From: Falsiroseomonas tokyonensis
GTDB lineage: Bacteria; Pseudomonadota; Alphaproteobacteria; Acetobacterales; Acetobacteraceae
Direction: 5' to 3'
Assembly: GCF_019024325.1 (NCBI RefSeq)
Contig: NZ_JAFNJS010000008.1
Span: 62,001-126,000, forward strand
DNA: 64,000 nt
The notes beneath the pieces are model-generated. The model was not told the origin of the DNA. It saw only the letters and a list, made by a program, of their open reading frames with translations, and did not search any database. Made by a program: the position numbers and the translations under genes. This document shows, piece after piece, positions 52,488 through 63,179 of the stretch (positions are counted from its first letter, which is position 1; each line of letters opens with the position of its first letter).

Positions 52488-53153
52488 TCAGCCGGCGCCG
52501 CCCAGGTCGCGCAGCCTGTCGTAGCCCACATTCAGCCCGCCCATGCGCAGCGTCACCACCCCCGCATCGCGCACCGCGCCGGTGACCTGGCCAGTGACGC
52601 TGAAGGTCAGCGGCACGGCGGCGCCATTGCTGTCCCGCCCGCTGACCGTGACGCGATAGGTGCCATCCGGCTTCTGCGTGCCATTGGCGGTCTTGCCGTC
52701 CCAGTTCCACCGGCTGGCATTGGCGCCCAGCGTCACGTCGCTGGCCCGCACCAGGATGTTGTTTGCGTCGCGCACCTCGATCCGCGCGGTGCGGGCGGCG
52801 CCGGCGGCGGGCAGGTTCACCTGCGCCTGGCCGGATTGCAGGGGCAGCCGGTCCGATTCCACCGCCACCCGCCGGCCGACCAGCGCCGCGGCCTCGCCCA
52901 GCTGGCTCGATTGCTGCAGCGCCAGAAGCTGCTGCAGCGTGTTGTTGGTGTTGATCTGCTGCTCGACGGTCGAGAACTGCACCAGCTGCTGGGTCAGCTG
53001 GTTGGCATCCATGGGCGAGGTCGGGTCCTGGTTGCGCAGCTGCGTGGTCAGCAGCTTCAGGAAGGTGTCGAGGTCGCCCGATAGCCGGGTGCCGCTGCCA
53101 TTGCTGGCGGTCCGGCCGCTGGCGGCGAGCGCATTGGTGACGGAACCGCTCAT
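52488..53153 (-). CDS. flgD: Flagellar hook assembly scaffold FlgD
   Basis: FlgD caps the growing hook and is needed for polymerisation of FlgE. The 221-residue protein has the N-terminal FlgD block 'DTFLKLLTTQLRNQDPTSPMDANQLTQQLVQFSTVEQQINTNNTLQQLLAL' and C-terminal Tudor/FlgD-Ig-like sequence ('WNWDGKTANGTQKPDGTYRVTVSG'). An AAGGAG motif lies 7 bp before ATG 53153. It follows fliK by 12 bp on the same strand, so both are probably one transcript from the sigma-54-type promoter at 55157-55172. Confidence 0.96.
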   Translation of the reverse strand: MSGSVTNALAASGRTASNGSGTRLSGDLDTFLKLLTTQLRNQDPTSPMDANQLTQQLVQFSTVEQQINTNNTLQQLLALQQSSQLGEAAALVGRRVAVESDRLPLQSGQAQVNLPAAGAARTARIEVRDANNILVRASDVTLGANASRWNWDGKTANGTQKPDGTYRVTVSGRDSNGAAVPLTFSVTGQVTGAVRDAGVVTLRMGGLNVGYDRLRDLGGAG

Positions 53154-53165
53154 GCGGATGCTCCT

Positions 53166-55100
53166 TCAGACGGCAAGGTCGATGAGGCCGGGATGCGCCG
53201 GGCCGCGGCGGGTGGGAGGCAGGCGGGCGGCGGAGTCGGGGCCGGCCTGGCGCGCGGCCTCAGCGCGCGGATGGCCGCGGCCACCTTCCTGGCCTTGCTG
53301 CGCGGACTGACCCTGGCCCGGCTGGCCCTGGCCGAGCTGGCCCTGGCCCGAACTGCCCTGGCTGAGGCTGAAGCTGAGGCTGGGCGCGCGATCGCCGAAG
53401 CCGGCCTCCGACAGGGCGCGCTCCAGCTCCCGCGCATCGCGCTGCAGCAGGGCCAGGGTCTCGGGCCGCTCGGCGGAGACGCGGATGGCGGCCTCGCCCC
53501 GGCTGCGGTCGATCGCGACCTCGACCCGGCCGAGCTCCACCGGATCCAGCGTCAGGGTCAGGCTGGCATCCGGCCCCAGCGCCAGCGCCACGGCGAAGGG
53601 CGCGACCTGGCGCGAGGGCATGGCGACGGGCACCGGGCTGGTGCTGCGCGCAGGCTGCGGGCTGCGGGCGGGCGCCACCGTCGTGCTGGGCGGGACGAGG
53701 GCCTGGAGGGGCTGCGCGACCTCGGGGCGTGGCGCCGCCTGGTCCGGGGCCGCAGCGGCGGGCAGCGGTTCGGCAGCGGCCAGGACCGGCGCGGGGCCGG
53801 CGGGGGCGGCGTGCTCCGCCGCCGGCGGCGTCTCGGCCTCGGGCAGGGCGGCGGCCGCAAGGGGGGCGGGCTGCGGCAGATCCGCGCGCGGCGGCTCCCG
53901 CCCCGGCCGAGGCGCCGGCGGGGCGGCCGGATCGGCGGCCGGGTTAGGCGGGGCGGGGGTGGGCGCCGCGGCCTCGGGCGGCGGCTCCGCGGTGGGGGTT
54001 GCCGCGGTCCGCACCGTATCGGGGGCGGAAGCGGGCGGCGCGGGCGCGGCTGGCGGTGCGGCGGCGGTTGTCGAAGGCGCGGGCGTTCCGGCTGGCGCGG
54101 CTTCAAGTCCAGGCTCGGCCGGAGCCGGCGCGCCGGGGGCGGCGGCCGCGATGCGGCGGGGTCCCGCCGGCGGCGGCGGCACCGTTCCTGGCGCCGCCTC
54201 GGCCTGCGGCAACGCGGGCGCGCCAGCCAGCCCGGCCGGCGGCTCCGGCGCGGCTGCCAGGGAAGCGGGCGGCGCCGTGGCGAGCGCGGCCGGTGCGGCG
54301 GAGAGGATTGCGGGGCCAGCCTCGGGCGCGGCCTGCGACGGCGTGGCCTGCAGGGGGAGGGCTTGCGGGGCAGCGTCCGGGGCAGCGGCTTCGGCCAGGC
54401 CGGCCGCGGCCAGCCCTGGCGGGGCGGCCGGGGCGGTTGCGGCAGGGGCGGATGGCGCGGCGGGGGCCGCGGCCGGCCCTGGCGCAGCCGCTGCCGGGGT
54501 GGCGGCCGGCGCATCGGCTGGCAGGGCGGGGGCTGCGGGCGCGGCCTCGGCCGGGACCGGGCGCGCGGCCTGCGGCGCGGGGGCCGGCGGAAGCGGCGCG
54601 GCGATGGGGGCCGCGACGGGCGTGGCGGGCGCTGCCTGCCCCTTGGCCTGGGCCATCTGGGCCACCTCGGCCTCGGGCCCCAAAGGTTCGGGGGCCAGGG
54701 ATTCGAGGGTCAGCGTCTCGGGGGCCAGGGTCTCGGTCTTCGAGGCCTCGGAGTCCGGGATGTCGACCGCCAAAGCTTCGGCCGGCAGCGGCGCCTCGGC
54801 TTCGGGACTGGGCAGCGCCAGGGCGGAGAGCAGCAGAGATTCGACCGGTGTGCCAGCCAGCTCGGGCAGGATCGCCGCCGCCAGCCCGGCCTCCGGCTCC
54901 GCAAGTTCGGAGGGTGCGGCGGGCGGCGCCTGCTCCAGCCCAGCCTCCCCCTCGGCGACCGCGCGCAGCAGCAGGCTGGCGAAGCCTTGCGGCTCGCTGG
55001 ACGTGCTGCCGGCCGTGTTGCCGCACGGTCCCAGGGCTGCGGCGCCGGCGGCGATCGCGGTCGGGGCGGCGGCGGGCCTTGGGGCAGCAATGATGTCCAT
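53166..55100 (-). CDS. fliK: Flagellar hook-length control protein FliK
   Basis: FliK measures hook length and switches export from hook to filament substrates. The 644-residue protein is extremely rich in alanine and proline (residues 1-480), as expected for the flexible ruler part. It then has the conserved C-terminal FliK domain 'LTLDPVELGRVEVAIDRSRGEAAIRVSAERPETLALLQRDARELERALSEAGF' (about residues 530-585) and a glutamine/glycine-rich tail. ATG 55100 starts the protein; the frame remains open far upstream only because of base composition and would run across flgE. It has a sigma-54-type promoter 57 bp upstream. Confidence 0.92.
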   Translation of the reverse strand: MDIIAAPRPAAAPTAIAAGAAALGPCGNTAGSTSSEPQGFASLLLRAVAEGEAGLEQAPPAAPSELAEPEAGLAAAILPELAGTPVESLLLSALALPSPEAEAPLPAEALAVDIPDSEASKTETLAPETLTLESLAPEPLGPEAEVAQMAQAKGQAAPATPVAAPIAAPLPPAPAPQAARPVPAEAAPAAPALPADAPAATPAAAAPGPAAAPAAPSAPAATAPAAPPGLAAAGLAEAAAPDAAPQALPLQATPSQAAPEAGPAILSAAPAALATAPPASLAAAPEPPAGLAGAPALPQAEAAPGTVPPPPAGPRRIAAAAPGAPAPAEPGLEAAPAGTPAPSTTAAAPPAAPAPPASAPDTVRTAATPTAEPPPEAAAPTPAPPNPAADPAAPPAPRPGREPPRADLPQPAPLAAAALPEAETPPAAEHAAPAGPAPVLAAAEPLPAAAAPDQAAPRPEVAQPLQALVPPSTTVAPARSPQPARSTSPVPVAMPSRQVAPFAVALALGPDASLTLTLDPVELGRVEVAIDRSRGEAAIRVSAERPETLALLQRDARELERALSEAGFGDRAPSLSFSLSQGSSGQGQLGQGQPGQGQSAQQGQEGGRGHPRAEAARQAGPDSAARLPPTRRGPAHPGLIDLAV

Positions 55101-55156
55101 GGTCGCGGGCTCGCCTCCGGCTGGGGCGCGCCTGGCACGCCGCTCGGCACGGCCAG

Positions 55157-55172
55157 GGCAAGCTGCATGCCA
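55157..55172 (-). promoter_or_regulatory. Sigma-54-type promoter for fliK-flgD
   Basis: Read on the minus strand the sequence is TGGCATGCAGCTTGCC, which has the required GG-N10-GC spacing and matches TGGCAYR-N4-TTGC. It ends 57 bp before the fliK start. Confidence 0.72.
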
Positions 55173-55190
55173 GTCGACGCCGCCCCTGCC

Positions 55191-55241
55191 CCCGGCAGGA
55201 CGCGCCACCAGCCCGGCAGGAACTGCCTGCCCCCGGCAGGA
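55191..55241. promoter_or_regulatory. Three phased CCCGGCAGGA repeats, candidate enhancer site
   Basis: The 10-mer CCCGGCAGGA occurs exactly at 55191, 55212 and 55232, with 21- and 20-bp steps (two helical turns). The middle copy is followed by CTGCC, making a GGCAG-N3-CTGCC dyad. The array sits between two divergent sigma-54-type promoters, as expected for binding sites of a FlbD/NtrC-type activator. Confidence 0.65.
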
Positions 55242-55279
55242 CCGGCCGGGCGCGGCGGGGCGAATCGCCGTCCAGGCGC

Positions 55280-55295
55280 TGGCATGGCGGTTGCG
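55280..55295 (+). promoter_or_regulatory. Sigma-54-type promoter for flgE-flgK-flgL
   Basis: TGGCATGGCGGTTGCG has GG-N10-GC spacing and matches the -24/-12 consensus. It ends 48 bp before the flgE ATG. Confidence 0.75.
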
Positions 55296-55343
55296 TGATG
55301 GCCGCCGACGACCACCACGCCGGCCCCTCGGGAGATCCAGACC

Positions 55344-56711
55344 ATGTCGCTGCTCGGCTCCATGACCACCGCGATCAGCGGCCTCACCGCGCAGTCGCGC
55401 GCCCTGGGTCATGTCTCGGACAATGTCGCCAATAGCCAGACCGTCGGCTTCAAGCGCGTCGACACCAACTTCACTAGCTGGCTGACGCGCACCAATCTGC
55501 GCCTGCACATGCCGGGCTCGGTGGAGGCGCGGCCGGACTACACCAATACCATCCAGGGCACGGTGGAGCAGGTGGAGAATCCGCTGGCCATGGCCATTGC
55601 CGGCCAGGGCTTCTTCTCCGTGGCCCAGGCGCGCGGCGGCCAGGGCGACAGCGTGATCTTCGACGACCGCCAGTTCTTCACCCGCGCCGGCGACTTCGCC
55701 ATGGACCGCGACGGCTACATGGTGAACGGCGCCGGCTACTACCTGGAGGGTTGGGAGATCCAGCAGAACGGGGAGCCGGACCGCACCACGCTGGGCCCGA
55801 TCCGGATCAGCGAGCTGGTCTACAACCCGCAGCCCACCTCCACCATCGACCTGGCGGCGAACCTGCCGGCCAATGTGGCCACCGTGACCACCGTGCCCGG
55901 CGCCGCGCCCTGGGCGCCGGCCGAGGATCCGGTCAGCAGCGTCATCCAGATCTTCGACGACCTGGGCAACCAGCAGCAGGTGACGCTGGACTGGTGGCGG
56001 CTGGATGTGGACACCTGGCGCCTGCGCATCACGCCGGATGGCGATACGCTGAACCCGGTGGATGGCTATTTCGCCGATATCGACTTCGGCGGCCAGATCG
56101 CCGCCGGCCCGCCGGCGGTGGATGCGCCGGCCGGCACCATCTCCTCCATCACGCCGCTGAGCGCCACCACCGGCACCACGCCGGCGCCGCTGGCCGCCGG
56201 CGATGCCGCCTTCCTCGGCTTCACCGTGGACTACGGCTTCGGCAACCAAGCCATCCAGCTCGGCCTCGGCGGCTTCGGCATTCCCACCGGCCTGACCAGC
56301 TATTCCGGCACCGAATACACGGTGCGCGACCTCAGCCAGGACGGCGTGCCGCTGGGCTCCTATTCCGGCGTGACGGTGCGCGAGAACGGCGATGTGGCGG
56401 TGAACTACGACAATGGCCAGACGCGCATCGTGGCGCGCGTGCCGGTCGTCGCCTTCAACGATCCGGACAAGCTGCAGCGCCTGGACGGCCAGGCCTTCAT
56501 GCGCACCGTCGAAAGCGGCGAGGCGCGGGTGACGGATGCCGCGACCAATGGCGTGGGCAAGCTGGTCACCGGCTCCATCGAACGCTCCAACGTCGATATC
56601 GCGTCGGAATTCTCCAAGCTGATCCTGGCGCAGCGCGCCTATACCTCTAACACCCGCATCGTGACCGCGGCGGATGAGATGCTGCAGGACACGATCAACA
56701 TGAAGCGGTGA
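55344..56711 (+). CDS. flgE: Flagellar hook protein FlgE
   Basis: FlgE polymerises into the hook, the universal joint of the flagellum. The 455-residue protein begins with the axial-protein helix 'MSLLGSMTTAISGLTAQSRALGHVSDNVANSQTVGFKR' and ends with 'SNVDIASEFSKLILAQRAYTSNTRIVTAADEMLQDTINMKR', the paired helices that form the inner tube. The middle carries the variable hook domains. A sigma-54-type promoter lies upstream. flgK follows after 23 bp. Confidence 0.96.
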   Translation: MSLLGSMTTAISGLTAQSRALGHVSDNVANSQTVGFKRVDTNFTSWLTRTNLRLHMPGSVEARPDYTNTIQGTVEQVENPLAMAIAGQGFFSVAQARGGQGDSVIFDDRQFFTRAGDFAMDRDGYMVNGAGYYLEGWEIQQNGEPDRTTLGPIRISELVYNPQPTSTIDLAANLPANVATVTTVPGAAPWAPAEDPVSSVIQIFDDLGNQQQVTLDWWRLDVDTWRLRITPDGDTLNPVDGYFADIDFGGQIAAGPPAVDAPAGTISSITPLSATTGTTPAPLAAGDAAFLGFTVDYGFGNQAIQLGLGGFGIPTGLTSYSGTEYTVRDLSQDGVPLGSYSGVTVRENGDVAVNYDNGQTRIVARVPVVAFNDPDKLQRLDGQAFMRTVESGEARVTDAATNGVGKLVTGSIERSNVDIASEFSKLILAQRAYTSNTRIVTAADEMLQDTINMKR

Positions 56712-56734
56712 GGGGAAGGGCGGGATAGCGCGCC

Positions 56735-58264
56735 ATGGGTCTCGACCTCGCCCTCTCCGTCGCCACCAGCGGCCTTCGGCTGCTGGATCGCCAGATGGCG
56801 CGCGCGGCGGATGACATCGCCAATGCCGGCACGCTGGGCCATACACGGAAGTCGCTGGAGGGCGATGCCCTTACCGTCTCCGGCACCGGCCAGGGCGTGC
56901 GCGCACGCGTCGTGGCGCGCGACGTCGATCTCGCCGTGCAGGCGGCCGGGCAGCGCGCCGGCGGCGATGTGGCGGCGGCCGGGCTGCGCGAGCGGCTGCT
57001 CGGCGGGATCGAGGCGGCGCATGGCTCGCCCGAGAATGGCGACAGCCTGGGCGGGCTGTTCACCAGCCTGCAATCCAGCTTCATCGAGCTGCGCGAGGCG
57101 CCGGCGGACCCGGTGCGGCGCAATGCGGTGGTGACGGAGGCGGAGAACCTGGCGGCGCGGCTCAACGGCGTCTCGGATGCCATCGCCACCGCGCGTCAGG
57201 GCGCGCAGGATGCGCTGCGGGCGGAGGTGGCGGCGGTGAATGCCGGCCTGTCCGACGTCGCCCGGCTGAACACCGAGATCCGCGGCGAGATGGCCGCCGG
57301 CCGCAGCATCGCGGCGCTCGAGGATGAGCGGGATCTTGCGATCGGCCAGCTCGCGCAATCCCTCGACCTCTCCGTCATCCGTTCCGAGACGGGCGCGGTG
57401 ACGCTGGTGGCGCGCGGTGGCGTGGTGCTGCCGCTGGTGGAGGGCAGCACGCCCTTCTCGCTGGCAGATGCGACGGTGGGCAGCGGCGCCTTCCATGGCG
57501 GCGCCGGCACGCTGCCGGGCGTGATGCTGAACAATCGCGACGTGACGCGGCAATTGGCCGGCGGCCGCATGGGCGCGGCGGCGGAGCTGCGCGATGCGAC
57601 CCTGCCGCGGATGCAGGCCGAGGCCGACCTGGCCGCGGCACAGCTGGCGCATCGGCTGGATGCGCAGGGGCTGCGGCTGTTCACCGATGCCGCCGGCACC
57701 GTGCCGGACCCGACGCAGCCCTATGCCGGCAGCGCCATGATCGGCTTCGCCGGCACCATCCGGGTGAACCCCGCGGTGGCCGGCGACCCTGCCCTGCTGC
57801 GCGACGGCACCCATGTGGTGGTGGGCGACCCGGCCGGCCCCAGCGCCTTCACGCCCAACCCCGTGGGCGGCCCGGCGGGCTTCGAGACGCTGCTGGACCG
57901 CGTGCTGGATTTCAGCTTCGGCGCGGAGCAATCGGCCGGGGTGGCGCAGCCCGGCTTCGCCACCACCGGGCTCGGGCCGGATGGCACGCTCTCCTCCCCG
58001 CTGTCGGGGCTGCGCACGCTGGCCGATTACGGCGCGGCGCTGGTGGCCGAGCAGACCGGCGCCCGCGCCGCCGCCACCGAGGCCGGCAGCCGCGCCAGCA
58101 GCCTGCAGGAATTGCTGGATGCGCGCATGCAGGAACGCTCCGGCGTCGACGTGGATGCCGAAGTCGCGGCGATGGTGCAGCTGCAGACCGCCTATGGCGT
58201 GAATGCGCGCGTGATCTCCACGATCCAGTCGATGTGGGACGCGCTGTTCAGCGCCGTCCGCTGA
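56735..58264 (+). CDS. flgK: Flagellar hook-associated protein 1 FlgK
   Basis: FlgK forms the first junction ring between hook and filament. The 509-residue protein starts with an axial helix 'LSVATSGLRLLDRQMARAADDIANAGTLGHTRK' and contains 'FTSLQSSFIELREAPADPVRRNAVVTEAENLAARLNGVSDAI' and 'LNTEIRGEMAAGRSIAALEDERDLAIGQLAQSLDL'. It ends with 'VDVDAEVAAMVQLQTAYGVNARVISTIQSMWDALFSAV'. It lies in the flgE-flgK-flgL operon, 16 bp before flgL. The family call is secure. Confidence 0.95.
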   Translation: MGLDLALSVATSGLRLLDRQMARAADDIANAGTLGHTRKSLEGDALTVSGTGQGVRARVVARDVDLAVQAAGQRAGGDVAAAGLRERLLGGIEAAHGSPENGDSLGGLFTSLQSSFIELREAPADPVRRNAVVTEAENLAARLNGVSDAIATARQGAQDALRAEVAAVNAGLSDVARLNTEIRGEMAAGRSIAALEDERDLAIGQLAQSLDLSVIRSETGAVTLVARGGVVLPLVEGSTPFSLADATVGSGAFHGGAGTLPGVMLNNRDVTRQLAGGRMGAAAELRDATLPRMQAEADLAAAQLAHRLDAQGLRLFTDAAGTVPDPTQPYAGSAMIGFAGTIRVNPAVAGDPALLRDGTHVVVGDPAGPSAFTPNPVGGPAGFETLLDRVLDFSFGAEQSAGVAQPGFATTGLGPDGTLSSPLSGLRTLADYGAALVAEQTGARAAATEAGSRASSLQELLDARMQERSGVDVDAEVAAMVQLQTAYGVNARVISTIQSMWDALFSAVR

Positions 58265-58280: not shown

Positions 58281-59321
58281 ATGTCGATCATCGGCAGCAT
58301 CGGCAATCTCGCGGTGGACCAGGCGGCGCTGCGCGCGCGGCTCGACACCGCCTCGCGCCAGGTCTCCACCGGGCAGAAGGCGGAAGTCTTCGGCGACCTG
58401 AAGCCGGAGGCGCGGCGCGCCATCGACCTGCGCGGCGAGGTCGGGCGGCGCGAGGCCTATTCGAATGCGGCGGACCGCGCGCTGGGCCGCGCCGGGGCGA
58501 CGCAGACGGTGCTCAGCCGGCTGCACGACATCTCCGCGACACTGGGCGCGCAGGCGCTGCGGTCGAAGACCCTGTCCTCGACCGATGCGGAGAACCTGGC
58601 CAGCACCGCCGCGGCGGCGCTGGAGGAGGTGGCGGCGCTGCTGAACACGCGCCATGGCGGCGAATACCTGTTCGGCGGATCGGACGTGGACCAGCCGCCG
58701 GTGCCGGATGCCGCCAATATCGTCACCAGCCCGATGGCCACCGCCATCGCCACCGCGGTCGCCACGCTGGATGCGACCAATGCGGCGACCGTGCTGGCCG
58801 ATTCGGTCACCGCCGCCACGGCCGCCGCCACCACGCCCTTCTCCGCCTTCCTGGAGGGCGCCGGGCTGACCGAGGCGACGCGCGCCGTGCAGGTGGCGGA
58901 TGGCGAGCGAGTGGAGATCGGCGTCTTCGCCAATCGCGCCCAGGACGGGGAGGTGACGGCCAGCTGGGGCCGCGAATTGCTGCGCAACCTGGCGGTGCTG
59001 GCGGCGACCACGCCGGCCCAGGCGGCGGAAGGCGGCGGCTGGTCCGCGCTGATGGACGGCGTGGCGAGCGCGATTGCCGAGGCCTCCACCGCGCTGGCCA
59101 CCGAACAGGCGATACTGGGTGCGGCGGAGCTGCGCATCGGCACCACGCGCGATCGCCACCAGGACACGCTGGTGGCGGTGCGCACGCAGCTGGGATCGGT
59201 GGAGGAGGTGGACCTGGCGCAGGCATCGGCCGAGCTCAGCCAGCTGAAATCGCGGCTGGAGGCCAGCTACGAGGCCACCGGCATGCTCTCCCGCCTGTCG
59301 CTGGCGCAGCTGCTGCGCTGA
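58281..59321 (+). CDS. flgL: Flagellar hook-associated protein 3 FlgL
   Basis: FlgL forms the second junction ring, on which the filament grows. The 346-residue protein has flagellin-like N-terminal coils ('AVDQAALRARLDTASRQVSTGQKAEVFGDLKPEARRAIDLRGEVGRREAYSNAADRALGRAGATQTVLSRLHDISATL', 'GEYLFGGSD') and the C-terminal helix 'VEEVDLAQASAELSQLKSRLEASYEATGMLSRLSLAQLLR'. The middle is alanine/threonine rich. It is the last gene of the flgE unit. Confidence 0.93.
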   Translation: MSIIGSIGNLAVDQAALRARLDTASRQVSTGQKAEVFGDLKPEARRAIDLRGEVGRREAYSNAADRALGRAGATQTVLSRLHDISATLGAQALRSKTLSSTDAENLASTAAAALEEVAALLNTRHGGEYLFGGSDVDQPPVPDAANIVTSPMATAIATAVATLDATNAATVLADSVTAATAAATTPFSAFLEGAGLTEATRAVQVADGERVEIGVFANRAQDGEVTASWGRELLRNLAVLAATTPAQAAEGGGWSALMDGVASAIAEASTALATEQAILGAAELRIGTTRDRHQDTLVAVRTQLGSVEEVDLAQASAELSQLKSRLEASYEATGMLSRLSLAQLLR

Positions 59322-59513
59322 GGTCGGCACAGATGGCCGGGGGCTTCCGGCCTTCAAGCCTGGTTAAGCCAGATGCGCGATGATGCAGGGGTGGGACGCG
59401 CCCCGGCGGGATGGCCGAGGCAAGGCCTGCAGCCTCGTAGGAACGAGCGCGTGGCGCAGGCTGCGTGTTGGCGAAAGATTCGCGACGGTCGGCATCCGCC
59501 GGCACCCCGGCCT

Positions 59514-59534
59514 GGCGGGAAATGTTTCCCCGCC
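59514..59534. promoter_or_regulatory. Inverted repeat upstream of flbT
   Basis: GGCGGGAAA and TTTCCCCGCC face each other across 2 bp (one bulged C), ending 28 bp before the flbT start. It may be an operator or a leader hairpin. The rest of the 241-bp gap between flgL and flbT holds no gene, and no sigma-54 site with correct spacing was seen. Confidence 0.4.
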
Positions 59535-59562
59535 GCCAAGCCGACAGACTTGGGAGAGTGGC

Positions 59563-60036
59563 ATGTCCACGTTGGTGCTCGAGATGCGGGCTGGCGAGTT
59601 GATGGTGGTGAACGGCGCCTCGCTGCGGTTCCGCAGCCGGACCCGGGTCGAGCTGGTGGCCAAGGCGCGGTTTCTCTTCGGCAAGCAGGTGATGTCGCCG
59701 GAGGCGGCGAATACGCCGTCGCGCCGGATCTATTTCGCGCTGCAATGCGCCTATGTCGGGCCGGAGGAGGAGCGCGAGGCGGCGATGGCCGATGCGCATC
59801 GCCTGGTGGCCGAGTTCCAGGAGGCGACGACCTCCGACATGGCGCGGCAGCTGCTGGAGCGTTCGCTGGCCCTGGCCGAGCAGGACGAATGGTACCAGGC
59901 GCTGCGCCTGGTGCGCCATGTGATGCGGCACGAGGCGACGGTGCTGGGCCTGGATGTGCAGACCGGCCTGCCGGTGGCGCTGCCGGGCCAGGTTGCCGCC
60001 GCCGGCGCCAGCGCGATCAGGCCGCATCTGGACTAG
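59563..60036 (+). CDS. flbT: Flagellin mRNA regulator FlbT
   Basis: FlbT binds the 5' leader of flagellin mRNA and lowers its stability or translation until the hook is complete (known from Caulobacter). The 157-residue protein has the family opening 'MSTLVLEMRAGELMVVNGASLRFRSRTRVELVAKARFLFGKQVM', 'ARQLLERSLALAEQDEWYQALRLVRHVMRHEATVLG'. A GGGAGAG motif precedes ATG 59563; the upstream frame to 59380 is not conserved. It directly precedes the flagellin gene, whose 194-bp leader is the likely target. Confidence 0.93.
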   Translation: MSTLVLEMRAGELMVVNGASLRFRSRTRVELVAKARFLFGKQVMSPEAANTPSRRIYFALQCAYVGPEEEREAAMADAHRLVAEFQEATTSDMARQLLERSLALAEQDEWYQALRLVRHVMRHEATVLGLDVQTGLPVALPGQVAAAGASAIRPHLD

Positions 60037-60230
60037 ATTTTCCCGCCGCTGCGGGGCCCGGCTTTACGCCGGATTCATCCCCAGGCGGCAGGATGCAGAG
60101 GAAGGCCTGACAAGCGTCGGGCCTGCCACCGGGGGATGCGGCGCCAATCGGGCGCCAGTCCCGCGGTCCCGCGGACGGGAGGCAAAACGTCGCCCCGCAC
60201 GCGGAACGCCTTTCGAAGGAGATGGGGACG
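60037..60230 (+). promoter_or_regulatory. Flagellin promoter and structured leader
   Basis: The 194-bp gap before the flagellin gene contains several hairpins, notably GGCGCC-AATCG-GGCGCC (60140-60156), and a GC-rich CCGCGGTCCCGCGG block (60161-60174). An AAGGAG motif (60216-60221) lies 9 nt before ATG 60231. The leader is the expected target of FlbT; I found no sigma-54 site with correct spacing. Confidence 0.5.
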
Positions 60231-61421
60231 ATGTCCTCCGTCAACACCAATGCCGCCGCCATGGCGGCGATCCGCTCGCTGAACAATATCGGCAAGGACA
60301 TGGGCAAGACCCAGCAGCGGATCGAGACGAACCTGCGCATCAGCAAGGCGGATGACGACCCCGCCGTGTTTGCCATCGCGCAGAACATGCGCGCCGACCT
60401 GAACGGCATGACCGCGGTGAAGGACAGCCTGAAGTTCGGCAAGTCCGCGCTGACCGTGGCGCGCGACGCGGCGACGCAGATCTCCGACGAGCTGGGCCGG
60501 CTGAAGCAGACCATGACGCAGGGCCAGCAGCAGGGCCTGGATGCGGAGCAGATCAACAACCAGATCACCAACGCGCTGCAGAATATCGACGCCTTCGCCA
60601 ATTCCGCCACCTTCAATGGCGTGAACCTGCTGGTGAATGGCCTGACGGTGGACGGCGTGACCAATACCTCGGTCGACATCGTGCGCGACATCCAGGGCTC
60701 CGTCACCTCCGTGGCGGGCACCGACAGCACCGCGGCGGGCCTCGACCTGACCGGCCTGTCCGTCACCTCCGCCGCCCGCACCGTCACCTTCGACGACACG
60801 CTGGCGCCGGCGAATGGCGAGGTGCTGACCGTGACGGTGCAGCGCGACCTTGACGGCGACCCGGCGACGGCGCTGGAGGATGTGGACCTGGTCTTCGAGT
60901 TCAGCGATGGCTCCGCCGCGCTGGGCACCACGCCGGATCCGAACACCCGCGTCTATGACGTGCAGTTCGAGGCGACGGACAGCCCGCTGACCCGCGTGAC
61001 CGCGCTGATCACCCGCATGAAGGAAGCGGGCCTGGATGCCGGCCTGAACAGCGAGGGCGAGCTCTATATCCGCGGCAACTCGCAGGATGTCACCACCGAC
61101 ATCACGGGCGCCACGGTGGAAGCGGCACCTGCGGCCGGCACGGGCCAGGACGAGGCGATCGCCCTGGTGGAAGGCGCGATCGACCTGATGGGCACGCGGC
61201 TCGCCAACCTCGGCGCGAATATCCGCCAGGTCGATGGCCTGACGACCTTCACCACGCAGCTGAACGACTCGATCAAGGAAGGCCTCGGCGCGCTCGTCGA
61301 TGCCGACCTGGCGGAGGAAAGCGCGCGGCTGACCAGCCTGCAGACCAAGCAGCAGCTGGCCACGCAGTCGCTCTCCATCGCCAATGAGCAGAGCCAGTCG
61401 CTGCTGTCGCTGTTCCGATAA
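60231..61421 (+). CDS. Flagellin
   Basis: The 396-residue filament protein has the conserved N-terminal coil 'MSSVNTNAAAMAAIRSLNNIGKDMGKTQQRIETNLRISKADDDPAVFAIAQNMRADLNGM' and C-terminal coil 'LVDADLAEESARLTSLQTKQQLATQSLSIANEQSQSLLSLFR'. The exposed middle (residues 140-310) is short and variable. Its D0/D1 ends are of the alphaproteobacterial type. ATG 60222 abuts the Shine-Dalgarno motif AAGGAG; ATG 60231 has the correct spacing and gives the usual N-terminus. flbT lies before and flaF after it. Confidence 0.95.
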   Translation: MSSVNTNAAAMAAIRSLNNIGKDMGKTQQRIETNLRISKADDDPAVFAIAQNMRADLNGMTAVKDSLKFGKSALTVARDAATQISDELGRLKQTMTQGQQQGLDAEQINNQITNALQNIDAFANSATFNGVNLLVNGLTVDGVTNTSVDIVRDIQGSVTSVAGTDSTAAGLDLTGLSVTSAARTVTFDDTLAPANGEVLTVTVQRDLDGDPATALEDVDLVFEFSDGSAALGTTPDPNTRVYDVQFEATDSPLTRVTALITRMKEAGLDAGLNSEGELYIRGNSQDVTTDITGATVEAAPAAGTGQDEAIALVEGAIDLMGTRLANLGANIRQVDGLTTFTTQLNDSIKEGLGALVDADLAEESARLTSLQTKQQLATQSLSIANEQSQSLLSLFR

Positions 61422-61489: not shown

Positions 61490-61888
61490 ATGAGCGTTTC
61501 GCGCTACGCCGCCACCCAGAACGCCGTCGCCTCTCCCCGCGAAATCGAATTGCGCGCCTTTCGCTACGTCAACGGGCTCATGGCCGGGGCGACCGATACG
61601 CGGTCGCGCGCCGTGGCCTTGGAAAAGGTGCATCGGCTGTGGTCGATGCTGATCAACGACCTCGGCTCGCCGGGCAACAAGCTGCCGGCGGAGCTGCGCG
61701 GGCGGCTGATCTCGCTCGGCATCTGGGCGCAGAAGGAAAGCGACCTGCGGCTGGACGATGGCGGCAGCCTGGAGCCGCTGATGGCGCTGCATCGCGACAT
61801 GATCGAGGCGCTGGAGGCGCAGCGCGCCCTGGCCCAGCCGCCGCTGCCCGCCACGCCCGCCATGGCCTTCACCAGCCGGGTCGCCTGA
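61490..61888 (+). CDS. flaF: Flagellar biosynthesis regulator FlaF
   Basis: FlaF works with FlbT and acts positively on flagellin synthesis or secretion, as known from Caulobacter and Brucella. The 132-residue protein shows 'YAATQNAVASPREIELRAFRYVNGLMAGA', 'LEKVHRLWSMLINDLGSPGNKLPAELRGRLISLGIWAQKESDLRL'. A GGAGG motif lies 5 bp before ATG 61490. The next gene begins 1 bp after its stop, so the two are translationally coupled. Confidence 0.93.
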   Translation: MSVSRYAATQNAVASPREIELRAFRYVNGLMAGATDTRSRAVALEKVHRLWSMLINDLGSPGNKLPAELRGRLISLGIWAQKESDLRLDDGGSLEPLMALHRDMIEALEAQRALAQPPLPATPAMAFTSRVA

Positions 61889-61889
61889 C

Positions 61890-63179
61890 ATGCTGCCGGG
61901 CCTCGGCGCGCTGACCGCACTTGCCGTCGCGCAGCGCGAAGGGGCCAATCTGCAGGCGCGTTTCACCGCCCGCCGCGACAACGAAGCCGCCATGGCCCGC
62001 TTCCGCGAGGCCGCGACCCAGCATCAGGATGTGGAATCCCTGCTGCAGGACCGCCGCACGCTGGGCGTGATGCTGGAAGCCTTCCAGCTGGAAGGCGAGA
62101 TCAACAAGCGCGGCATCCTGCGCAAGATCCTGACCGAGGATCCGGCGGCCGAGGGGAGCCTGGCCAACCGGCTGACCGACCGCCGCTGGCGCGAATTGGC
62201 CCGCGCCTTCGCGACGCGCGAAACCTCCACACAGACCACCACCGAAATCGCGGCGCTGAGCACCACGGCGATCGGCGAGCTTTCGCTCGCGCGCGTCTCC
62301 GGACTCAGCACCGACCAGCTGCGCGCGCTGACCTCGGCGCAGGTGCAGGCGCTGGATGCGGCGCAGGTCGCGGCCATCGGCAGCAGCGAGATCGCGGCGC
62401 TGGATGCGGGCGATCTGCGCGCGATGGATGCGACGCAGGTGGCGGCCCTTCGCCCCTCCCAGCTCTCGGCGCTGCGCACGGCGCAGCTGGCTGCCATCGA
62501 TGCGGCGGATTTCGCGCGGCTCGGCGTGGCGCAGCTCCGCGCGCTGTCCACCACGCAAATGGCGGCGGTGGCCACCAGCCAGCTCGCGGCGCTGGGCACG
62601 GAACAGCTGGCCGCCTTCTCGGCCAGCCAGGCGCGGGCCCTGGGCACGGCGCAGCGCGCGGCGCTGCAGCCGGCGCAGCTGCGCGCCCTCGGCACCTTCG
62701 GCCCGCCCACCGCGGCGGAGGAAGCGGCGGCGGCGGCGCTGGAACAGCGCAGCCCCTTCGCCGATTCCGCGCTGCTGGACCGCGTGGTGGCGGATGCGAT
62801 GACCAATCGCTACGAGAAATCCATGGGCGAGGCCAATGCCGGGCTGCGGGAGGCGCTGTACTTCCTGCGCAATGCCTCGAAGATCACCTCGATGACGGAG
62901 CTGATGAGCGACAAGGCGATGACCGCGGTGGTGCGCGGCGCGCTGGGCCTGCCGGAAAGTTTCGGCGTGCTGGAATTCGACCAGCAGAAGTCGCTACTGA
63001 CGGCGCGGGTGAACCTGGACTCGCTGAAGGATCCGAAGGAAGCGGCGAAGCTGGCGCAGCGCTACCTGGCGCTGTCGGCGCCCTCGCAATCCGCCTCGAA
63101 CCCTGTGCTGGCCCTGTTCGGCGGCGGCGGGTCTTCGCTCAACAGCCTGATCGGCAGCGGGCTCTCGCTCAGCGCCTGA
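61890..63179 (+). CDS. DUF1217-type flagellar-locus protein with an 18-copy octapeptide repeat insertion
   Basis: The 429-residue protein has two halves resembling DUF1217: residues 35-110 ('RFREAATQHQDVESLLQDRRTLGVMLEAFQLEGEINKRGILRKILTEDPAAEGSLANRLTDRRWRELARAF') and residues 295-395 ('DRVVADAMTNRYEKSMGEANAGLREALYFLRNASKITSMTELMSDKAMTAVVRGALGLPESF'). Between them, residues 123-266 are 18 consecutive eight-residue repeats without a single insertion or deletion, consensus L-x-T/A-x-Q-L/V-x-A. DUF1217 proteins occur in flagellar clusters of alphaproteobacteria, function unknown. There is no signal peptide. It starts 1 bp after flaF. Its role may be in flagellar export or assembly; that is inference from position. 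Confidence 0.85.
   Translation: MLPGLGALTALAVAQREGANLQARFTARRDNEAAMARFREAATQHQDVESLLQDRRTLGVMLEAFQLEGEINKRGILRKILTEDPAAEGSLANRLTDRRWRELARAFATRETSTQTTTEIAALSTTAIGELSLARVSGLSTDQLRALTSAQVQALDAAQVAAIGSSEIAALDAGDLRAMDATQVAALRPSQLSALRTAQLAAIDAADFARLGVAQLRALSTTQMAAVATSQLAALGTEQLAAFSASQARALGTAQRAALQPAQLRALGTFGPPTAAEEAAAAALEQRSPFADSALLDRVVADAMTNRYEKSMGEANAGLREALYFLRNASKITSMTELMSDKAMTAVVRGALGLPESFGVLEFDQQKSLLTARVNLDSLKDPKEAAKLAQRYLALSAPSQSASNPVLALFGGGGSSLNSLIGSGLSLSA
62256..62687 (+). repeat. 18 tandem 24-bp units encoding an octapeptide repeat
   Basis: Units are in perfect register: LSTTAIGE, LSLARVSG, LSTDQLRA, LTSAQVQA, LDAAQVAA, IGSSEIAA, LDAGDLRA, MDATQVAA, LRPSQLSA, LRTAQLAA, IDAADFAR, LGVAQLRA, LSTTQMAA, VATSQLAA, LGTEQLAA, FSASQARA, LGTAQRAA, LQPAQLRA. 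The DNA units have diverged, so the array is old and held at protein level. Confidence 0.9.

Follow-up and report, generated by a model that had tools for sequence, protein, structure and literature searches.

Immediately downstream of flaF in Falsiroseomonas tokyonensis lies a gene whose product belongs to the flagellar DUF1217 family and carries an uninterrupted array of eight-residue repeats in its middle, which raises the question of what such an array does inside a flagellar protein and what the protein itself contributes to the flagellum. The window, that is, the whole stretch of 64,000 nucleotides that was analysed, places this gene at the end of a run of hook and filament genes (Table 1), and the PF07309 match directly upstream agrees with the original prediction that the gene adjoins flaF. 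The reading preferred here, with a probability of roughly 0.5, is that DUF1217 is an exported protein needed for flagellin to become filament, which would act at the tip or junction and which would bear in Falsiroseomonas an outer solenoid of 19 octads of the ALTTAQ type.

Table 1. Features of the flagellar locus and of the DUF1217 protein (window positions).
Feature	Position	Strand	Basis and remarks
FlgD hook cap	52491..53153	-	PF03963 E 6.9e-22
FlgE hook protein with its own FlgE_D2	55344..56711	+	PF06429, PF22692, PF07559
FlgK	56735..58264	+	PF22638 E 5.4e-32
FlgL-type hook-associated protein	58281..59321	+	Flagellin_N, Flagellin_C; FlgL name from its place after flgK
FlbT	59380..60036	+	PF07378 E 2.8e-28, residues 65-189; real start perhaps further downstream
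Flagellin	60222..61421	+	PF00669, PF00700
FlaF	61490..61888	+	PF07309 E 1.6e-20
DUF1217 flagellar protein carrying the ALTTAQ array	61890..63179	+	429 aa; PF06748 E 9.7e-38, PF20080 E 4.7e-28; 0 cysteine
N-terminal half of DUF1217 core, residues 1-110	61890..62219	+	G152 and G203, which lack the insert, align over 1-110 and again from 288
ALTTAQ array, 19 octads, residues 115-266	62232..62687	+	Pfam, relatives' alignment, 19 short predicted helices
Linker, residues 267-287, species-variable length	62688..62750	+	Alignment; predicted helix 275-285
C-terminal half of DUF1217 core, residues 288-396	62751..63077	+	PF06748 best stretch 292-383; 2o8s match

First of all, the protein is a member of DUF1217, since PF06748 scores 130.1 bits against a curated cut-off of 22.9, and its array is a member of ALTTAQ, PF20080 scoring 97 bits in five stretches against a cut-off of 26.4. 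The PF06748 match falls into two stretches flanking PF20080, so the array was rightly predicted to lie between two halves of a DUF1217 domain. The original count of 18 in-register octads at residues 123-266 is found in the translated ORF, but the true number is 19: the additional unit, residues 115-122 (QTTTEIAA), has a helix of its own in the AlphaFold model, and its first residue is L in 9 of the 11 array carriers described below. Residues eight positions apart are identical in 51 of 144 cases, a value reached by none of 20,000 residue shuffles (shuffle maximum 37), which excludes chance as the source of the periodicity. Residues of the LIVMF class occupy phase 1 in 18 of the 19 units and phase 6 in 17, and all remaining phases together hold 2. 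The 18 units first counted are on average 53% identical to one another as DNA and 36% as protein; where codons of different units encode the same residue, 189 of 476 pairs are synonymous and not identical, and the dN/dS of the insert is 0.25-0.71 in 8 species pairs. This DNA divergence and purifying selection bear out the proposal that the octads are selected at the protein level.

Judged by its profile match, the octad repeat has already been described, namely as the Pfam family ALTTAQ. There is also a solved sequence relative, PDB chain 9zem (HeliScrew4), which matches the array with an E-value of 1.8e-12 across 113 residues and which, from its name and regular sequence, appears to be a designed protein. 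ALTTAQ proteins and HeliScrew4 appear by sequence to share the octad of the window array; theirs are free-standing and long, whereas that of the window has a fixed number of units and sits inside a flagellar core. Searches of the open-licence literature for ALTTAQ, HeliScrew and related structure terms found no paper. The genome itself has two further large ALTTAQ ORFs, one of 2254 codons with 66 Pfam stretches (L124:3542-10303, +) and one of 1275 codons (L125:5822-9646, -), with octads in the parts looked at (both ends), and similar frames among the family matches listed run from ~490 to 2934 codons, some of them perhaps incomplete. What is new is the setting of a known repeat, in which a domain of constant length has been joined to a flagellar assembly protein whose export is probable.

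In the AlphaFold prediction, made for the window protein with 21 relatives (mean pLDDT 86.3, pTM 0.70), 19 separate helices of 4-7 residues each lie between residues 117 and 267. The rod or solenoid once suggested for the array is thus matched by a solenoid-like model with one short helix per octad, and the array block is predicted with a pLDDT of 89-96 and periodic helices, not as a disordered segment. Helix 98-106 ends just before the array and helix 293-315 lies beyond the insert; in the model of an insert-less relative (pLDDT 84.7) helix 98-106 is followed by helix 118-140, and the window array would be placed between the equivalents of these two. Both core halves match AGR_C_984p, a DUF1217 protein of Agrobacterium with a solved structure (2o8s), in which the matched halves are 14 residues apart, whereas ~177 residues (111-287) separate them in the window protein. 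In Foldseek comparisons of the predicted models with 2o8s, the full model gave a TMt of 0.74 (rmsd 6.5) and the insert-less relative a TM of 0.75/0.82 (rmsd 2.3), so that both are predicted to have the DUF1217 core fold. The insert-less core had no significant fold match besides 2o8s, and FliD, FlgK and flagellin were absent from the best 50 of its 59 matches. For the full model, 9zem was not among the best 50 of 187 fold matches and is linked to the array by sequence; the best unrelated fold was the mesothelin-type superhelix of short helices, a weak match (TM at most 0.37, E 0.085 or worse, among the mesothelin matches listed), and a viral fold search gave no match. In addition, the C-terminal tail (window 63084-63176) has low model confidence and ends in a short hydrophobic motif, and several DUF1217 proteins have an LxLFA-like end which, by eye, resembles the LLSLFR end of the window flagellin.

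As for relatives, it had been asked whether the insertion is conserved and whether its unit number varies. DUF1217 is present in all 15 Falsiroseomonas genomes; in 11 it is split within one open frame by the array and in the other 4 the array is missing. Every one of the 11 arrays has 19 units and aligns without a gap across 152 residues, at 38-74% identity to the window array (over the 144 residues first delimited) and 59-90% in the flanks. Some residues are unit-specific; for example, the closing glycine of unit 2 and an arginine in unit 12 (original numbering) are each kept in 11 of 11. In three array-less proteins (G152, G203, G205) the match runs from residue 1 to 110 or 111 and picks up again at 287 or 288; in the fourth (G095), which has a longer linker, it covers 1-122 and picks up again at 294. 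Among 397 family genomes, no DUF1217 carrier of an ALTTAQ array was found outside Falsiroseomonas, with four first-look candidates scored per genome, a depth at which a carrier elsewhere could be missed; the matches listed for these genomes include 9 full-length ones, all from Falsiroseomonas, with G204 and G206 not among them. Moreover, among 15 proteins of a 200-genome sample whose DUF1217 match is split or in tandem, ALTTAQ occurs besides the window only in G195, and since the family's DUF1217 matches are mostly contiguous, the segment is not a general part of DUF1217 proteins.

On a tree of 21 rows the presence or absence of the array requires at least 3 changes by parsimony; the core role therefore does not depend on the array. 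The in-register unit identity between three clades is reached by 0, 153 and 42 of 20,000 unit-order shuffles, and because it exceeds that of shuffled orders, the favoured history is a single origin, after which the array was lost or exchanged within the genus. Three independent gains are disfavoured by the homologous unit order of the three clades. The same data bear on the idea, already put forward in the original prediction, that the array is a spacer or molecular ruler; the number of its units would then set a distance. The constancy of 19 units without a gap at such low identity lends it some weight; length, however, is constant in any folded domain, and the four array-less genomes keep the operon, which makes a ruler rather improbable. 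More improbable still is the idea that the array is a nearly neutral insert which arose as a copy of a large ALTTAQ gene. Such ORFs do exist in the genome and presence varies within the genus, but the constant unit number, the dN/dS of the insert and the register between clades disfavour a selfish or neutral repeat, and the array has a protein identity of at most 48% to the large ORFs, so that any copying would not be recent.

The loop between the DUF1217 halves is, to judge from sequence, an insertion hot spot, because other genera hold other domains there. DUF1217 is found in 158 of 200 family genomes sampled, and at least 15 of these have a copy that is split inside a single frame, namely G000 and G195 (both with ALTTAQ) plus 13 more. 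Ten split proteins were scanned, including one ALTTAQ carrier (L078), and in 4 of them the FlgE_D2 domain of the hook protein lies above cut-off between the halves. One of these is a 1014-aa protein with four FlgE_D2 stretches (L080:7695-10736, -), whose neighbours encode FlhA, FliI, FliJ, MotB, MotA and FlgD; another (in L071) has FlhA, FliI and MotA as neighbours, and in both the DUF1217 gene lies between FlhA and FliI, next to genes of the export apparatus, with MotA close by. Directly upstream of the latter gene is a protoglobin-MCP chemotaxis protein (L071:5288-6862, +). A plasmid of Rhodovastum atsumiense encodes a DUF1217 protein with a ~92-residue domain inside it three times (L068:8867-9709, +); this domain, which occurs in one copy each in G162 and G107, has no significant match in Pfam or PDB. 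The remaining split copies hold still other insert sequences, and in genome G061 there is a tandem pair of DUF1217 copies in one protein (L081:7042-8703, +). In other Alphaproteobacteria, DUF1217 stands at the start of ~800-980-residue proteins in which a long insert precedes the C-terminal tail (L157-L162). When these six were scanned, Flagellin_N was above cut-off in one (L157, whose genome also holds FliD), and another had a weak FlgL similarity, below cut-off.

The gene order flgE-flgK-flgL-flbT-fliC-flaF-DUF1217 is found in 11 of the 14 named Falsiroseomonas loci and, as far as the contig reaches, in the other 3, and four Elioraea loci have fliC-flaF-DUF1217. Among 16 fetched loci that lie outside the genus or are paralogues, 7 are near flagellin, flaF, flbT or hook genes; the other 9, which include all four FlgE_D2 carriers, have no flagellin, flaF, flbT, flgE, flgK or flgL nearby. 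The two FlgE_D2 loci that were checked are still in flagellar clusters, that is, DUF1217 is not always found with flagellin at the same locus; flagellin is present in all 16 tested family genomes with DUF1217. Between flgD and flgE, the window also contains a 1226-aa ORF with a proline/alanine-rich part (53166-56846, -; its listed start overlaps flgE), at a place where a hook-length protein could be expected. The products of flaF and flbT act on flagellin expression. With these two genes as neighbours, and with FlhA and FliI beside the gene in two other genera, DUF1217 could also be taken for a cytoplasmic flagellin chaperone, an export helper or an assembly regulator, whose rod would be an intracellular binding scaffold. 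This is considered unlikely; a hook-protein domain, and once a flagellin segment, in the loop would make little sense inside the cell.

The amino acid composition also speaks against a cytoplasmic role, since cysteine is depleted throughout the family: 78 of 82 DUF1217 rows, which are related to each other, are cysteine-free (exact duplicates merged and the over-long start of G410 trimmed), or 78 of 81 if L018_6, a longer-start version of the gene named_L150, is left out. In aligned segments, as distinct from whole proteins, cysteine is lacking in FlgK (15/15), FlgL (17/17), FliC (27/27) and FlgE (13/14), and in 20 of 26 for FlaF and 3 of 20 for FlbT. In the window, 7 of 28 ORFs of 200-600 aa, as delimited by a rough ORF picker, are cysteine-free: FlgD, FlgE, FlgK, the FlgL-type protein, flagellin, the DUF1217 protein and one with a start like that of a secreted protein. 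Because the MCP in L071 and a MotB-like protein in L080 likewise have no cysteine, this mark of export is suggestive only.

What the protein may do is indicated by work on Rhodobacterales. According to excerpts of PMC12363192, a 124 kb plasmid of C. sphaeroides which also has rmlCBDA encodes a protein named CP1, with the gene order fliC-flaF-flbT-CP1, and a Phaeobacter CP1 mutant secretes FliC and hook proteins into the medium and has no flagella; FliD is given there as absent in Phaeobacter, and CP1-4 are held to be confined to Rhodobacterales, which counts against the preferred reading. The order fliC-flaF-flbT-DUF1217, corresponding to that of the paper, was found on two Cereibacter sphaeroides plasmids (96.6 and 120.9 kb) and in Salipiger abyssi, and the 120.9 kb plasmid also has rfbC, rfbB, rfbD and rfbA, which fits the rmlCBDA plasmid described in those excerpts (PMC12363192). 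The plasmids come from other strains and differ in size from the published one, and the C. sphaeroides proteins (261 and 259 aa) have a contiguous PF06748 match with no insert, unlike that of the window, whose order flbT-fliC-flaF-DUF1217 nevertheless agrees with that of a CP1 gene. Because of the shared gene order and the PF06748 matches, CP1 is very probably DUF1217 in C. sphaeroides, and by gene order it would be so in Phaeobacter, too. The authors suggest chaperone or FlhE-like roles for the CPs, none of the four being found in the Phaeobacter exoproteome as excerpted (PMC12363192), and this favours the cytoplasmic reading; that flagellin is still secreted without CP1 (PMC12363192) argues against it.

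The mutant also bears on the view that DUF1217 belongs to the hook-filament junction or is a minor component of the filament, and is no cap, the rod decorating the filament or the cell surface. Variable domains at one site would suit such a protein, and the two further ALTTAQ-octad ORFs in the genome suggest that rods of this kind have other uses there; yet FlgK and a FlgL-type protein are both encoded, and the loss of the filament together with CP1 in the excerpted work (PMC12363192) goes beyond what decoration explains. The view is accordingly judged doubtful.

The phenotype of CP1 loss, as far as it is described in the excerpts, resembles the reported loss of FliD, without which "flagella are not formed" (excerpt of PMC5072837). 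FliD_N and FliD_C were found in none of 12 genomes (the own genome and 11 relatives) in a search with three positive-control genomes, and the window protein has no FliD match in Pfam. Homology of DUF1217 to FliD is ruled out by domain and fold: the likeness lies in the proposed role only, the core fold is unrelated and no FliD domain is matched. The window protein likewise has no Flg_bb_rod, Flg_bbr_C or Flagellin_N/C match and differs in fold from the axial proteins FlgE, FlgK and FliC. In a survey of 241 Alphaproteobacteria with FliD counted above cut-off, 27 genomes have DUF1217, of which all 27 have flagellin and 3 have FliD, each on another contig, whereas 53 of the 122 flagellin genomes that lack DUF1217 have FliD (Fisher p 0.0017, kinship ignored). 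As 69 of the 149 flagellin genomes have neither, DUF1217 is not a general answer to the missing cap. For Brucella, the parts consulted of a review list a FliD gene from KEGG (PMC8781033), although DUF1217 is also present, according to an excerpt of another paper (PMC7410920). No explanation of flagellin assembly without FliD in alphaproteobacteria was found in the open-licence literature. It is a tentative idea, and an improbable one at present, that in many FliD-less alphaproteobacterial flagella the missing filament cap, or a tip factor equivalent to it, is DUF1217/CP1, which would do the same job with an unrelated fold and whose outer loop would be a domain-swapping site for hook D2, other domains or the 19-unit ALTTAQ solenoid. 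Both this idea and the preferred reading are held less likely than they might be because the FlgE_D2 carriers do not lie beside flagellin and non-exported neighbours are also cysteine-free.

In the preferred reading, that of an exported protein needed for filament formation, the Falsiroseomonas protein would be a form of a widespread alphaproteobacterial DUF1217/CP1 flagellar protein which is presumably exported and without which secreted flagellin would not become filament. Its two core halves are predicted to form a compact helical domain, and the loop between helix 98-106 and helix 293-315 would take up extra outer domains, in Falsiroseomonas a constant-length solenoid of 19 ALTTAQ octads with one short helix each. 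The protein would most likely act at the distal end of the growing filament, as a stand-in for the FliD cap, or at the hook-filament junction, and the rod would project outward like the variable outer domains of axial proteins.

In summary, the locus links a little-studied family, for which a structure has been solved, with a published mutant that lacks filaments and with marks of export, and several different domains are found in a single loop. Unit deletions or tags in the solenoid, whose length is constant, could help to locate the protein, and DUF1217 is a candidate for the factor that would allow filament building in bacteria without the usual cap protein.
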